This document shows, in pieces, positions 876-10,939 of a stretch of DNA of 64,000 nt. The stretch spans positions 1-64,000 of the forward strand of contig NZ_CAJYGK010000145.1 of the NCBI RefSeq assembly GCF_913773725.1, read 5' to 3'. The DNA is from an uncultured Aquabacterium sp. (GTDB taxonomy: Bacteria > Pseudomonadota > Gammaproteobacteria > Burkholderiales > Burkholderiaceae_C). Position numbers and translations under genes: made by a program. Within the stretch, counting starts at the first letter, position 1; each line of letters begins with the position of its first letter. The notes below the pieces were generated by a model. The model had not been told where the DNA came from. It made no database searches and worked only from the letters and a program-made list of their open reading frames with translations.

Positions 876-2192
876 TCACGGCTTCCAGGAATCGGGTTCG
901 GCACCGGGCAGCGGGGCCGTCAACGTGAGGGTCAGCAGCGAGCGCGCAATGGCGTGGTCGGCCTGCGCTGCGGCGTACTCGAGCTCCACGGCATGCAGGG
1001 TGCGTCGCGCATCCAGCAGGTCCTGCAGGCCCAGGGCGCCATGGGCCCGGGCGTACTCGCTGGCTTTCAAGGCATCACGGGCCTGAGGCAGCAACTGGCC
1101 CTCGATGCGGGACAGGCGGGAGCGGGCGGTATCCCACGACTCCAGCAGCGCCCGGGTTTCCGCGAACGCGGCCGCAGTCACCCGCTCGAGTTCGGCCCGG
1201 GCGTCATCCAGTTGCACCTGGGCCCGGGTCAGCGCACCGGCCTGCCTGTCCGCCACGCCGAGCGGAACCGAGAACCCCACACCCCACAACCGCTGACCGA
1301 CCGGCGGATCGTGCTCGAACTGCACCCCCACCGTCACATCGGCCTTGCGCTGGGCCTGTGCCAGCGACAGGGCGGCTTCGGCCTGCGAAACGCGCTCTGC
1401 GGCAGCCCGCACATCGGGACGCTGCGCCACGGCATCCTGCGCCGCCTCGGCCTTCACGGGAGGCTGCGTCTGCACCTCGGGCCACGGGTCACCGGCCACC
1501 AACGCGGCCGTGCTGTCATCGCGCTCCAGCGCCAGCAACTGGCGCAACTTCCATCGGGCCTGGCGCCACTGCAGGTCGCTGTGGGCCAGCTCGTTGGCTG
1601 CCCGTTCGGCCTCCACCGACAAGCGGGTGGCTTCCAGTCTGGAGAGGTCGCCACGTGCCAGCCGCTGCAGCGCGATGTCGCGCCCTTCCGCCGCCAGCAC
1701 AGCATTGTCCCGCGCCACCCCTGCCTGCACCTGGGCGAGCTTGAGCTGCCAGTACGCCTCGGCCACGGCCGCAGCCTGCTGCCGTCCCGTGGCCCGCAGC
1801 TCCAGCTCGGCCGCCGCCACGCCGGCGTCGGCCACACGGGTGCGCCAGACGCGCTTGTCGCCCCGCTCCAGCGTCTGCTCCAGCCGCACGGTGGTGTCGA
1901 ACGGCCGCGACCAGGGGCCGCCATGCCCCATCTGGCTCGGGTTGATGGACTGGGTGTTGACGCTGAGCTGCGGCGGCGGCGTGACTTCTGCCGACACACG
2001 GTCAGCACGGGCGCCTTGCACCGCTCGGCGTGCCATGGCCACCTCTCGCCCGCCGTCCAGGGCACGTGCCAGGGCGGCCGTCAGGCTCCAGGACGCGTCA
2101 CCCCCATCGGCCCCACGGGCCGGCAGCTCGGCGGCAGCGGCCCATCCACCCACGCACATCAGAAAGAGAACAAACAGCCTGCGACATCTCAT
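876..2192 (-). CDS. TolC-family outer membrane efflux protein
   Basis: C-terminal part of the 876..2867 ORF; start at MRCRRLFVLFLMCVGGWAAAAELPARG (signal peptide); repeated coiled-coil pattern (RAEAALSLAQAQRKADVTVG.., RRTLHAVELEYAAAQADH). Confidence 0.82.
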   Translation of the reverse strand: MRCRRLFVLFLMCVGGWAAAAELPARGADGGDASWSLTAALARALDGGREVAMARRAVQGARADRVSAEVTPPPQLSVNTQSINPSQMGHGGPWSRPFDTTVRLEQTLERGDKRVWRTRVADAGVAAAELELRATGRQQAAAVAEAYWQLKLAQVQAGVARDNAVLAAEGRDIALQRLARGDLSRLEATRLSVEAERAANELAHSDLQWRQARWKLRQLLALERDDSTAALVAGDPWPEVQTQPPVKAEAAQDAVAQRPDVRAAAERVSQAEAALSLAQAQRKADVTVGVQFEHDPPVGQRLWGVGFSVPLGVADRQAGALTRAQVQLDDARAELERVTAAAFAETRALLESWDTARSRLSRIEGQLLPQARDALKASEYARAHGALGLQDLLDARRTLHAVELEYAAAQADHAIARSLLTLTLTAPLPGAEPDSWKP

Positions 2193-6310: not shown

Positions 6311-6329
6311 TCTGGCGGAGAGGGCGGGA
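6311..6329. repeat. att direct repeat, copy distal to the tRNA
   Basis: tctggcggagagggcggga, identical to 10847-10865. Confidence 0.88.
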
Positions 6330-6546
6330 CGATCTTCGCATGGCTTCAAAAGTCGCTTTAAATCAATGACTTAGCTTTAAATCCCGCCAAAAATGGTACG
6401 CAAAACAGTACATCTTTTGGTACACATCCTAGCGTACTTGGCCCGCTTGCTGGGGGAGTACGCCTCATGTCAACGCTCCGGGCTACTATTGCGTTGCATG
6501 GGACACAATGCAACGAGAGAAGCTATCAACAACTGTGAGGGAAAAA

Positions 6547-6897
6547 ATGAGCTTTGAATTCAAGGACAAAAAGCAGGTTGAAAAAGATATTGCAAATAGA
6601 GATCAGCAACGAACGGACAAGGCTTGGTTTTTGTTTCACGCAATCAAATTTTGTATTCCGTTATACGGAGTTACAACAATAATACTTGACGATTACAGAA
6701 AATCAAAAATATATTGCCAATCATTCAAGCAACCGGCAATTTTCCTTCTCTTTGCACTTCTGTCTTTTATATGGCCTGCGGTATTTGCAGCATCACAAAT
6801 ATTTTTGCCATTAATTATCATTCCAATTTTTATGGCCTATTCATATGCAAAATTTCGTACAAAATTCTGGACCGCGGTTGGCAATAATTTTCATTAA
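6547..6897 (+). CDS. Small membrane protein of unknown function, element-encoded
   Basis: MSFEFKDKKQVEKDIANRDQQRTDKAWF... followed by hydrophobic segments (FLLFALLSFIWPAVFAASQIFLPLIIIPIFMAYSY); followed by a strong terminator. Confidence 0.65.
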   Translation: MSFEFKDKKQVEKDIANRDQQRTDKAWFLFHAIKFCIPLYGVTTIILDDYRKSKIYCQSFKQPAIFLLFALLSFIWPAVFAASQIFLPLIIIPIFMAYSYAKFRTKFWTAVGNNFH

Positions 6898-6911
6898 AAG
6901 CAATTTAAAAT

Positions 6912-6941
6912 AAAAAGGCCAGTCTACTGACTGGCCTTTTT
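6912..6941 (+). terminator. Rho-independent terminator (possibly bidirectional)
   Basis: aaaaaggccagtc-tact-gactggccttttt, 8-bp stem with U tract, 15 bp after the small ORF stop. Confidence 0.88.
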
Positions 6942-6994
6942 ATTTGCAATTACCACACTCTTGACAAATCGAGATTTTTCAATATAAGTATGAT

Positions 6995-7084
6995 AACAGT
7001 TCCCCAACTGTGCAGTTAAATCATACGAAATAAATTCAAAATGTCAAGACTGCCTAACGGGAAAAATGTTAAGGCAGTTTTTTT
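6995..7084 (+). ncRNA. Candidate small RNA of about 90 nt
   Basis: TTGACA (6961) and TATAAG (6983) promoter-like hexamers; perfect hairpin acagtt-cccc-aactgt (6996-7011); terminator stem actgcctaac/gttaaggcagt (7049-7078) followed by 7 T. Confidence 0.5.
7049..7084 (+). terminator. Intrinsic terminator of the candidate small RNA
   Basis: actgcctaac-gggaaaaat-gttaaggcagttttttt; one-nucleotide bulge, seven-T tract. Confidence 0.75.
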
Positions 7085-7085
7085 A

Positions 7086-7612
7086 TGCGTCCATAGTCAC
7101 GATTCGGAAAATTGCCAATGCGAATGGCTAATATGAAGGCAGGTTAGAAATATTGGGAGTAACGCCCCATAACTGTAAATCCCCCTTAGCAGGTAGCGAA
7201 CCAATGATCGCATTGGTTAAGTAGGCAAGAATGGGAGTTTCAGACAGAGCCACACAGAGAGTCTTAATAGGTGCAACCTGGTTTGAAGTCGTGTTAATAC
7301 GATGAATGCACTATCTAGGGATGATTAACCATTCCCAGTCCCATATGTGGTGAAAACACTACTGAGAGGAACGAGACACCAAGCAGAATTTAAAAATCTG
7401 CTTAGGGTGAGTCTTTGTCCCTCTTAGTAGTGAAGCGGAGCGGAACGCATAAGAGGGACAAAGACTTTAATGTACCAGAATCTACGAAGTAGATTCTCTG
7501 TACACAGTACAGATATATTAATAGTACATGTGCAAAGTTGACTAAACCCAGTACAGTAAATAATAATCTCGTAGAGATTTACGAAGTAAATAAAAATGGC
7601 GCGGCCAAAAAT
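7086..7612 (+). ncRNA. Candidate large structured noncoding RNA or RNA-based control/origin region; strand inferred
   Basis: No ORF in the provided track between 6897 and 7614; at least eight inverted repeats including perfect stems at 7199-7218, 7411-7465 (16 bp), 7477-7497, 7498-7512 and 7577-7591. Confidence 0.55.
7411..7465. repeat. Perfect 16-bp inverted repeat with 23-nt loop
   Basis: gtctttgtccctctta (7411-7426) / taagagggacaaagac (7450-7465). Confidence 0.95.
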
Positions 7613-7613
7613 T

Positions 7614-8756
7614 TCACACTTTTTTGAAATTTTTCTTATTTTCTCGCTCTTGGTAAACTTCTAGGCCTTGCGACAATTCATAAATTGTTTTTTCGGCACG
7701 ATCTAGCTCTGCGATTAAATTTTTATTTCTGGTTTTTTCTTGGGTCAACTGATTGGCAACTTCTGCCACTCTTCTATCAGCCCATTCCTTAGCCTGAGCC
7801 TTCACTTTTTCAGACTTCTTTTTTTCGGCTTCGGCATCCACTTTCAATTTTTCAGCAGTGGCTAATGCATTTGCACTGGGTTTGTGCCAAGCACCAGAAA
7901 TGCCAGCCAACCAACTTCCAATTTTTGAACCAAAAGCAGAAGCCTGCTTTTGTGCATTAGAAATAATTTCTTGTGCTTTCAATTCGGCTTTCTTCAAACC
8001 GACTTTGTAGGCATTTTCTCTCACAGACCTATGCTGGGCCTTGGCATCTGCAAAAAATGCAGCCTGGGCCTTTTCTGCATGCCACTGGGCACGAGTCAAG
8101 CGACGACGAGCAGGCCCAATTCTGGTAAGACCATGAGCCATAGCAACTTTTTTGCTGAACTCATCTTGAAAGGCCCTCATTGCGCCAATGTAGGCCAAAT
8201 TCTGTTCACCTTTCTTTTTGCCATCAATTTTGGCCTGTTTACTGGCCTTGTACCCCTCGTGAATGTCATCCAGTCTTTCACCGATATGGGGCACCACTGT
8301 GAAATGTAAATGGGGGTGTGATTCGTCATTATGAACAACCACGGACTTCAAACGATCCCCGTACTTCTCTTTCAACCATTCCAATGTGTCTTCTGCAAAC
8401 TGGGGAAATTCATCCTCCATTGCTCTGGGTAAAGATGCCACACCAATAATGACACAGTTGGCATCTTTTCTCAATTTTCGACCCTGGGCATCCTTGGCCT
8501 GATCTGCCCACTCATCAATTAAAGGTAAAACATCCAGAGGTGGCATCCCATATAAAAGTGTTGGTTCACCTGGATTATTTATATGAGGGCAAGCACCATC
8601 CTCCCTCCATTGCTCAGACAAAATCTCTTTTGCACAACGTGATTTTGTAGTGGTAGTAACCTTTACTCCACTTTTTTTGGTAATAGTTTTTGATTGACTG
8701 CTACCCTCACGACCATAGACATCTATGTGAATAAATTGGTAACTCCCTTCCTTCAT
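7614..8756 (-). CDS. MobV / Mob_Pre-like relaxase (plasmid mobilization protein)
   Basis: 380 aa; VVVHNDESHPHLHFTVVP (HxDE...PHLHF relaxase motif), charged coiled-coil C terminus. Confidence 0.8.
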   Translation of the reverse strand: MKEGSYQFIHIDVYGREGSSQSKTITKKSGVKVTTTTKSRCAKEILSEQWREDGACPHINNPGEPTLLYGMPPLDVLPLIDEWADQAKDAQGRKLRKDANCVIIGVASLPRAMEDEFPQFAEDTLEWLKEKYGDRLKSVVVHNDESHPHLHFTVVPHIGERLDDIHEGYKASKQAKIDGKKKGEQNLAYIGAMRAFQDEFSKKVAMAHGLTRIGPARRRLTRAQWHAEKAQAAFFADAKAQHRSVRENAYKVGLKKAELKAQEIISNAQKQASAFGSKIGSWLAGISGAWHKPSANALATAEKLKVDAEAEKKKSEKVKAQAKEWADRRVAEVANQLTQEKTRNKNLIAELDRAEKTIYELSQGLEVYQERENKKNFKKV

Positions 8757-8846
8757 TCTGACCTCTTATTGTTTTTCTTTTCATAATTAATTTTAGCATT
8801 TTGTTTTTAAAGGTCAACTTATCCTCCCGGTATAGGGACCGACTAT

Positions 8847-8871
8847 GCTTATTACACTACGTTTCATAAGC
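8847..8871. other. Candidate oriT hairpin
   Basis: Reverse strand GCTTAT-gaaacgtagtgta-ATAAGC, about 90 bp upstream of the relaxase start; contains TAGTGTA resembling the MobV nick region. Confidence 0.45.
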
Positions 8872-9015
8872 GCGGCCCTGTCTGGGGACTCTGCGAGGCC
8901 AAATACCAAACAGCCGTTGACTTCACCACCTTTGCTCATATGGTGTTTTGCTTGCTTTTTTAGCATTCCCGGCTGGGAGCACCTACTTCATTTTTGGCAC
9001 GCAAAAATAAAGCAG

Positions 9016-9045
9016 GCAAAAAAATAGCACTCCGAAGAGTGCTTT
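9016..9045 (-). terminator. Rho-independent terminator
   Basis: Minus strand agcactc-ttcg-gagtgct followed by attttttt, just after the stop of the 9048-9410 ORF. Confidence 0.85.
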
Positions 9046-9047
9046 AA

Positions 9048-9410
9048 TCAGAATTTTGGTTTTGGTTCCTTCTTGTATTTATCAGGAACATTGCCGACAT
9101 CTGCAATTATTCCACCCTCTGGTATGTGCTCAAATTCTGGCATGGAAAAACCAGAAGCGATGAACCATCGTTCAAGTTCTTTCGTCCATATCAAAAAGTA
9201 GAGAACCCCATCAACAAAACAATGGATGAATTTTTTGCTATGCTTTGTGAAAATGTACACGCATTGAACACGATCAAGGTCAATAAATTCACCTTCATTA
9301 TTGACGGTGGGCAAGTCAATTGCATTCATAAAACTCACAATCAATAATTTAATTCTGAACCAAAGCCAATTTAACCATTTCATCTGCCGTTCTCCTTTTG
9401 AGAACAACAT
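9048..9410 (-). CDS. Small hypothetical protein, element-encoded
   Basis: 120 aa ORF (MLFSKGERQMKWLNWLWFRIKLLIVSFMNAIDLPTVNNEG...), followed by its own terminator; alternative start at MKWLNW. Confidence 0.6.
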   Translation of the reverse strand: MLFSKGERQMKWLNWLWFRIKLLIVSFMNAIDLPTVNNEGEFIDLDRVQCVYIFTKHSKKFIHCFVDGVLYFLIWTKELERWFIASGFSMPEFEHIPEGGIIADVGNVPDKYKKEPKPKF

Positions 9411-9429: not shown

Positions 9430-10773
9430 TCAAACACCAATCAGTGAAGTAACCTTCTTCCTTGCTTCATCCGTCCTATTGTATAGGTCATCTACATTGA
9501 ACTTATTGGAGTAAGTGGCAACATTGACGGCTTCAATTTCGTGCCCAAAATACTGGCAACGAACTTCATAGTCCACGCCATTTTTCATAAAGAAATCATT
9601 GAGGAACTTCCTCAGTGAATGAAAAACCAGCTTCGAACGGTGGATTTTTTCAGCCTTGATCTGGTAACTGAATTTTTTACCCACGGCATTACCTGCCCCT
9701 TTTCCCTCTCGGTCTTGATACCTGAAAACGAAGTCCGTCGCTTTCTTGCCATCCAGAAATTCACCGAAGCCCTGATTGAAGATCAGGGGAGGAATTGGAA
9801 CTTCTCTTTTGCCCGCAGATGTCTTGGCATCCCTAATTTGTAGGTAGTAGGTTCCTGCTTCTGAATTTTTGACATGCCCCACTTGCAGGGCAGTCAATTC
9901 ACCTACACGACAACCAGAGAAAATCTCCAACATCAAGCACCAGTAGTAATCTGGATCGCTGGTTTTTTCATTCTTGAATCGTTCAGACTGAAAGAATGTT
10001 TTGATCTCGTCAGGTTCAAAAATAGCATAACCATCGGTTAGTTTTTGCTTTTTTGTCTGCAAGTTCTTGGCGACTACTGGATTTTTCCCAACCAAGTACC
10101 CTTGATCCAGGGCAAAGTTTATCAACGATTTAAGGACAATCATTTTATTGTCAATTGTCCTTGGGTTGTTTTTCTTCGCCAAATCTTCACGATAACGATT
10201 AATATCACTTTGAAGAATTTCAGCGATCGGGCATTTACTTTTACAAAATGCTGTAAATTCTTTGACAACATTTTTGTAAGTCACAACCGTAGCAGGCTTG
10301 ACCTTTTTCAGTAAGAAAAACTTATCAAGTAGCTCACCCAGTGGCAGGGATTGCGAAGCAACGAGGGGACCGCTACGACGGTCTTCCAAGTCATGAACCC
10401 CCTTGGGGGTGGCGACAGCCGGGGTGCTTGCAGTCTGTTTATCAATCAGCCACTGAGGAAGTTTGCCAATGCTCTCCAATGCATTGAGCATGGCCGCATG
10501 GTCTTCGGCACCATCGGCCTTGAACACTCCCCGGCTCAGATCAATTTCGTACTTTTTGAACTTGTTGCGATCCTGCGACATTGGCAGCCCCTGATTCATT
10601 CTTGCTAGAAGACACGCCTCCAAGTAGGCGGCACGTTGCCGAATGATAGGAGGCTCACCTGCACCGAGTGCGAACACGAGGTACTTTTTGCCATCACACA
10701 GATGTCTGAGGGCGACAGGAACGAAGAACCTTGCATAGTTCCGTTGCTGCCTGGAAAACAAAAAAGGCTTCAA
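9430..10773 (-). CDS. Tyrosine recombinase / phage-type integrase
   Basis: 447 aa; FSGCRVGELTALQVGHV, HSLRKFLNDFF, YFGHEIEAVNVATYSN catalytic-box-like motifs; adjacent to tRNA-Ser; the called start is TTG so the true start is uncertain. Confidence 0.92.
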   Translation of the reverse strand: MKPFLFSRQQRNYARFFVPVALRHLCDGKKYLVFALGAGEPPIIRQRAAYLEACLLARMNQGLPMSQDRNKFKKYEIDLSRGVFKADGAEDHAAMLNALESIGKLPQWLIDKQTASTPAVATPKGVHDLEDRRSGPLVASQSLPLGELLDKFFLLKKVKPATVVTYKNVVKEFTAFCKSKCPIAEILQSDINRYREDLAKKNNPRTIDNKMIVLKSLINFALDQGYLVGKNPVVAKNLQTKKQKLTDGYAIFEPDEIKTFFQSERFKNEKTSDPDYYWCLMLEIFSGCRVGELTALQVGHVKNSEAGTYYLQIRDAKTSAGKREVPIPPLIFNQGFGEFLDGKKATDFVFRYQDREGKGAGNAVGKKFSYQIKAEKIHRSKLVFHSLRKFLNDFFMKNGVDYEVRCQYFGHEIEAVNVATYSNKFNVDDLYNRTDEARKKVTSLIGV

Positions 10774-10813
10774 AGTGGTACACCTTTCGGTACACGACTT
10801 TTGAAGCCTCTTT

Positions 10814-10846: not shown

Positions 10847-10939
<93 letters not shown>

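Follow-up and report, generated by a model that had tools for sequence, protein, structure and literature searches.

What occupies the segment between positions 6897 and 7614 of the window, the 64,000-nt stretch of DNA analyzed here? The original prediction described the segment as free of genes, packed with inverted repeats, and carried by a mobile element, and proposed a structured RNA across 7086-7612. The ORF list agrees, with no ORF of at least 60 aa on either strand across 6897-7614, and the listed repeats are found where they were placed, including a perfect 16-bp pair (7411-7426/7450-7465). The plus strand of 7086-7612 (527 nt) is predicted to fold at -152.5 kcal/mol, compared to -120.2 +/- 6.1 kcal/mol for dinucleotide shuffles (z = -5.3), and the minus strand yields z = -4.4 against shuffles of the same kind. 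As fold energy by itself is no proof of an RNA, a comparative test was made.

The mobile-element setting was borne out, in that the segment lies in an integrative mobilizable element, 4,555 bp long and AT-rich within a GC-rich chromosome (Table 1). We base this assignment on att repeats at a tRNA gene, an integrase, a relaxase, an oriT-like site, and no T4SS genes. Homologous elements have unrelated genes in place of the cargo ORF to the left of the segment, and the 120-aa ORF between integrase and oriT has an apparent counterpart at the same place in one of them (L025). GTACA-type repeats at both element ends (6400-6425, 10777-10795) resemble integrase arm sites, and further GTAC motifs lie directly downstream of the RNA, within 7471-7556. 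Another non-coding block that is conserved (TTCCCGGCTGGGAGCACCTACTT...AAGCAGG hairpin) was noted at 8965-9025 in the window, at 2100-2150 (minus) in L025, 4705-4790 (minus) in L026, and 6610-6690 in L054. This block is confined to the four copies with the RNA core AGTAGGC, whose AGTAGG and the block's CCTACT are complementary.

Table 1. Positions in the window of the element, control, and RNA features discussed in the text.
Feature	Position	Strand	Remarks
attL	6311-6329	.	19-bp TCTGGCGGAGAGGGCGGGA, exact repeat of 10847-10865; left element end
Cargo ORF, 129 aa, hydrophobic	6508-6897	+	No Pfam match
Symmetric A5-hairpin-T5 terminator	6912-6941	both	Sequence; terminator scan shows minus-strand site
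Rightward sigma70-like promoter	6961-6988	+	TTGACA-16-TATAAG; sequence
Leftward sigma70-like promoter	7020-7047	-	TTGACA-16-TATGAT, 11/12; promoter scan; faces rightward promoter
Hairpin + T7, intrinsic-terminator-like	7049-7084	+	Sequence; kept in copies with facing promoters
Conserved RNA 5' start	7085-7107	+	ATGCGTC...CACGATTCGG; CGRTTC in 10/10 copies
Helix P2	7154-7157/7166-7169	+	TGGG/CCCA; homologues CCAG/CTGG, TCAGG/CCTGA; by eye
Helix P3	7199-7206/7211-7218	+	AACCAATG/CATTGGTT; CTATAA/TTATAG in L025
Helix Pd	7221-7226/7249-7253	+	GT[A]GGC/GCCAC; 50/50 cells paired, ten copies
Pseudoknot PK1	7239-7245/7281-7287	+	Pd loop with Pa/Pb junction; 60/60 cells paired
Helix Pa	7270-7275/7307-7312	+	46/50 cells paired
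Helix Pb	7288-7292/7299-7303	+	50/50 cells paired
Helix Pc	7316-7321/7333-7338	+	58/60 cells paired
Strand X	7357-7369	+	Upstream partner of Y
Strand X'	7368-7377	+	Upstream partner of Y
Apical hairpin AGCAGA/TCTGCT	7382-7402	+	Between X' and Y
Strand Y	7411-7432	+	Pairs with X/X' upstream or Z downstream
Strand Z	7450-7465	+	Alternative Y partner
3' module	7568-7591	+	CTCGTAGAG and ATTTACGAAGTAAAT hairpins; recognizable in 8/10 copies
MobV-type relaxase (Mob_Pre, PF01076)	7614-8756	-	Pfam match
oriT-like inverted repeat	8844-8875	.	Presumably a MobV-type oriT, by likeness to that of pMV158; identical in L025, 2 mismatches in L026
120-aa ORF	9048-9410		No Pfam match
Tyrosine recombinase (integrase)	9430-10773	-	Pfam match
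attR	10847-10865	.	19-bp TCTGGCGGAGAGGGCGGGA at 3' end of tRNA-Ser
tRNA-Ser	10849-10939	-	

Nine homologues were found by BLAST, pattern, and covariance-model searches, giving ten copies with that of the window. The relaxase led to L025 (a 5-kb contig with tRNA-Asp) and L026 (tRNA-Asp), in both of which the RNA lies downstream of a relaxase with 63% identity to that of the window. A 24-base RNA pattern retrieved L032 from a collection of viral contigs, its element carrying another mobilization gene. A covariance model built from these four copies picked up L034/L037, L035/L065, and L036/L064, all in genomes from the window's order, and a second model found L061, L062, and L063. The contig of L025 is labelled Chryseobacterium (MAG), yet its element is close to those of the window's order, and the label is probably a binning error. 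The weak covariance-model hits (L041-L043), and pattern hits from viral contigs (L044-L053, L066, and L067), were set aside as apparently chance matches, as was a chance match to the 3' module inside a coding region (G323/L006).

Within the genome samples, which were small and partly overlapping and from which no prevalence can be estimated, the order yielded hits in 4 of 399 genomes, the family in 2 of 301, and two further families in 3 of 246 and 2 of 158, each count including the genome on which the search was centred. Across 369 genomes of the class, the window itself was the sole convincing hit, and no single query was run on more than ~1,800 genomes. When four copies were compared to 72,556 plasmids by BLASTN, and one copy to phages, no match was returned. 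The RNA is rare and scattered, as mobile DNA would be.

The ten copies share four helices (Pd, Pa, Pb, and Pc) and a pseudoknot (PK1) in which the Pd loop pairs with the junction of Pa and Pb. With the strands placed by hand, in sequence order, 264 of the 270 cells in these elements are paired, and when the 3' strands were reassigned at random 10,000 times, no helix ever attained its observed pair count. Up to five pair types occur per position in Pb and up to four in PK1. Since placement by hand may flatter the structure, the helices were recounted in seven copies on a MAFFT alignment built without structure, in which 91% of cells pair, compared to 67.7 +/- 2.3 when shuffled, and two-sided changes occur in 20 of 24 pairs. 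The covariation score on this alignment is 0.764, against 0.291 +/- 0.038 for shuffled strands and at most 0.242 when slid by 1-3 columns, and none of the 500 shuffles matched these measures, the tested structure itself having been derived from the same sequences. While the shuffling of strands disregards relatedness, the sliding control retains it, with the same outcome. PK1 is 100% paired on the MAFFT alignment, with a two-sided change at all four counted pairs; it is the most telling pairing, and was missing from the earlier repeat list, as was the conserved upstream control region at 6961-7084.

The extensive two-sided covariation, pseudoknot included, upholds the proposal of a structured RNA. 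L062 folds unremarkably as a single sequence (z = -1.3), so the case for the RNA rests on covariation. That the repeats arose by chance, or belong to a decayed gene, could draw on the AT-rich composition and nothing further; this reading is refuted by the covariation in ten copies, a check for a protein-coding or decayed gene found no coding match across the segment, and we give it practically no weight. The counts also speak to the strand, as the core contains 16 G-U cells and no A-C cells in the ten copies. G-U pairing is commoner in RNA than in DNA, and on the minus strand these 16 cells would be C-A mismatches, which identifies the plus strand as the functional one.

Not all of the listed repeats belong to this RNA. 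Those at 7199-7218 (P3), 7270-7312 (Pa, with Pb inside), 7382-7402, and 7411-7465 (Y:Z) are kept in homologues, whereas agaatctac/gtagattct (7477-7497) is common to the window and L032 only, and ctgtac/gtacag (7498-7512) was seen in no other copy. The gtggtg/cactac pairing (7347-7362) is present but is rivalled by a better conserved one, CACTACT (7357-) with AGTAGTG (7426-7432). Accordingly narrower than the 7086-7612 first proposed, the best conserved RNA spans ~7085-7465, and the window probably encodes there a structured RNA of ~380 nt on the plus strand. Its start may lie near 6995 or 7085, and its end could be 7465 or extend up to 7605. The stretch 7188-7226 inside the RNA contains two segments that resemble each other, TTAGCAGGTAG and TTAAGTAGGC.

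In the 3' half, strand Y has two possible partners. Pairing of X' with Y is found in all ten copies (8 of 10 bp in the window, 10 of 10 in L061-L064), and pairing of Y with Z in nine (16 of 16 bp in the window), L063 being the copy in which Y:Z was not found. Both pairings claim some of the same Y positions, pointing to alternative states or to folding in a set order, and the conserved Y with its two partners is suggestive of a switch. By eye, a second candidate long-range contact joins the loop of a hairpin at the 5' end to a complementary 3' segment in L061, L062 (GGGACTTGTT with AACAAGTCCC), L065, and, loosely, L063; the contact and its hairpin are both missing in the other six copies. The 3' module, missing in L063 and L064, may be the end of the RNA or a DNA site.

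Does the RNA belong to a known family? At the gathering cut-off, Rfam 15 returned only tRNAs in the window and in the nine locus records with the other copies, and a permissive search of 6400-7700 gave sub-threshold matches only. Group I and II introns and retron msr, as represented in Rfam 15, had no covariance-model match, and neither did the families originally floated, namely HEARO/omega RNA, GOLLD, and ROOL. HEARO/omega RNA resembles the RNA here as a structured RNA on a mobile element; however, no adjacent IscB, IsrB, or TnpB gene was found among the ORFs and in Pfam scans of selected genes, and with neither a model match nor a nuclease gene, membership in HEARO fails. The pseudoknotted fold on a mobile element would also suit a guide or scaffold RNA for an RNA-guided nuclease or retron encoded elsewhere, a reading that we regard as extremely unlikely, with no Rfam match, no TnpB, IscB, or RT gene recognized beside the copies, and only one RNA copy in the window's own genome. 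A likeness of AACTGTAA/GCCAC to the cobalamin riboswitch was dropped, as it is not conserved in L026 and has no Rfam match. No account of the RNA was found in the literature (open-access papers), and there is a fairly strong case that the family is undescribed.

The region upstream of the RNA points to regulation. Counterparts of both facing promoters of the window occur in L025, L026, L032, L037, and L064. In the window, by eye, the 5' ends of the two predicted transcripts would overlap at ~6995-7013, each folding there into a small hairpin, with loops complementary to one another (CCCC/GGGG). The terminator-like hairpin at 7049-7084, not in the list of the terminator scan, which allowed loops of 3-8 only, separates the RNA from the rightward promoter, and transcription of the RNA would require read-through or another promoter. 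In attenuation of the pT181/pIP501 type, convergent promoters and a terminator are found in the leader of the controlled transcript. Convergent promoters and a leader terminator are predicted here too, but the controlled product would be a structured RNA, not a rep mRNA.

The two -35 boxes and their flanking bases (6961-7047) form an inverted repeat, and the flanking bases are complementary and vary together (TC/GA, TA/TA). Frpo single-strand promoters likewise have promoter elements in a hairpin with compensating flank variation (PMC11541004), and one could read the conserved feature as a single-stranded DNA structure, a promoter or conversion origin of the Frpo/ssi type, instead of an RNA. 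The likeness consists of transferable DNA with -35/-10 elements in a hairpin, here a putative one, whereas the arrangement here has two facing promoters, a weak hairpin, and a position upstream of a non-coding RNA. The hairpin energy of the promoter pair is unremarkable in three relatives (z of ~0 to -1.4, compared to -3.0 in the window), the feature is limited to 6961-7047, and the G-U/A-C asymmetry across 7221-7338 favours the plus strand, while the transferred strand, judged from the orientation of the oriT, would be the minus strand. We therefore consider the DNA reading very unlikely and retain that of an RNA.

Further signs of antisense control were noted in two of the other copies. In L061, a separate 85-nt promoter-to-terminator unit upstream has 15 + 11 bp of complementarity to the RNA 5' end, with a predicted duplex of -49.1 kcal/mol (shuffle mean -26.1; 0 of 200 shuffles as strong) and a longest helix reached in 6 of 2000 shuffles; the small RNA would cover the 5' loop able to pair with 3' AAGTCCC (by eye). 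L065 has a 15-bp match to the RNA 5' end that stands out by length (2 of 2000), with a duplex energy that is not unusual (13 of 200). In L062, a promoter (11/12) lies directly before the RNA, and neither L062 nor L063 shows antisense signs. Antisense of the L061 type was not extended to the window, L025, L026, L032, and L037, in which complementarity in trans between the short plus-strand leader and the RNA is not above chance. Predicted antisense control is thus well supported in L061 and likely in L065; in the window, it is plausible from the promoter/terminator architecture, and evidence of this architectural kind makes it plausible in six copies (window, L025, L026, L032, L037, and L064).

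An antisense RNA directed at the 5' end recalls ColE1, where the likeness of RNAII/RNAI to the present system lies in a ~500-nt untranslated RNA whose 5' end is the target of a ~100-nt antisense RNA, here a predicted one in L061 and, in part, L065. The RNA could, by analogy, be an RNAII-like pre-primer with an RNAI-like antisense, allowing the excised circle to be copied without a Rep protein, and the similar length, the AT-rich 3' region with its conserved 3' module, and the lack of any recognized replication-protein gene in the 4.6-kb element would fit. Differing from ColE1, the RNA here is a deeply conserved pseudoknotted fold, beyond what a primer needs, and occurs in integrated, integrase-bearing elements only, the plasmid search with four copies having been blank; the 3' module is, moreover, missing in L063 and L064. 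RNA-primed replication is a live rival that we nevertheless hold to be unlikely.

A tyrosine integrase lies near the RNA in all ten copies, and the remaining genes vary. The mobilization protein is Mob_Pre in the window, L025, L026, and L037, TrwC in L065 and L061, MobA/VirD2-like in L062, and MobA_MobL in L063; L064 has a T4SS coupling protein, and L054 a protein that resembles the L062 relaxase, with no family assignment. Neighbouring genes differ between copies, with restriction-modification genes in L063 and a BsaWI-like protein in L065, and the gene on the 3' side converges on the RNA in some copies but runs in the same direction in others. With mobilization genes of at least four families beside it, the RNA appears as an independent module. 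Related small proteins of 144-160 aa adjoin tRNA-Arg(CCT) in L054 (1575-2057; no Pfam match), L062 (5093-5527), and L063 (3902-4360) and are possibly a recombination directionality factor. Taken together, that this is a real plus-strand RNA of an undescribed family whose carriers are integrative mobilizable or conjugative elements, forming an independent module under antisense-type control, is a conclusion in which we have good confidence.

As the integrase is the sole protein common to the copies, no protein partner is indicated. GOLLD, ROOL, and OLE form RNA-only oligomers (PMC12286853), and the RNA might similarly be an ornate, self-assembling homo-oligomer. Like GOLLD and ROOL, it is large, pseudoknotted, carried on mobile DNA (here a tRNA-integrated element), often near tRNA genes, and with no known protein partner. 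At ~380 nt, however, it is shorter than the studied ROOL (659 nt) and many GOLLD RNAs (>800; PMC12286853), it has antisense-type control signals, its carriers are integrative mobilizable elements and not clear phages, and neither family matched in Rfam. Such assembly is a live rival as well, but strikes us as rather improbable.

We favour, tentatively, a role in trans in the life cycle of the element, with repression by antisense RNA in established hosts. A conserved, ornate RNA under antisense control suggests dose-sensitive action. The non-coding product of the plus strand would be limited by an antisense RNA, made either from the promoter that faces the RNA's own (window) or from a separate upstream small RNA (L061 and, more weakly, L065). 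In an established host, the antisense RNA would accumulate and keep the RNA low; upon entry into a new cell or excision, it would be missing or diluted, and the RNA would be made in a burst and might then bind a host or element factor, aiding establishment or transfer. Relief of repression on entry is reported to be important for plasmids R1 and pMV158 (PMC5717011). More speculative, and in our view doubtful as a whole, is the wider picture of a new class of pseudoknotted RNA serving as a general and interchangeable accessory of integrating elements across a bacterial order, repressed by antisense and released on entry, with a two-fold (X'Y/YZ) switch that would act on a host factor or defence.

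RNA families with a pseudoknot backed by covariation and no known function are few, and the module described here travels between elements with unrelated transfer genes. An RNA that is kept while its surroundings are exchanged likely serves a need common to all integrating elements, for which establishment, excision control, and host interaction are candidates. The family provides a testable handle on what RNA does during the life of integrative elements, a subject with a gap relative to plasmids and phages.
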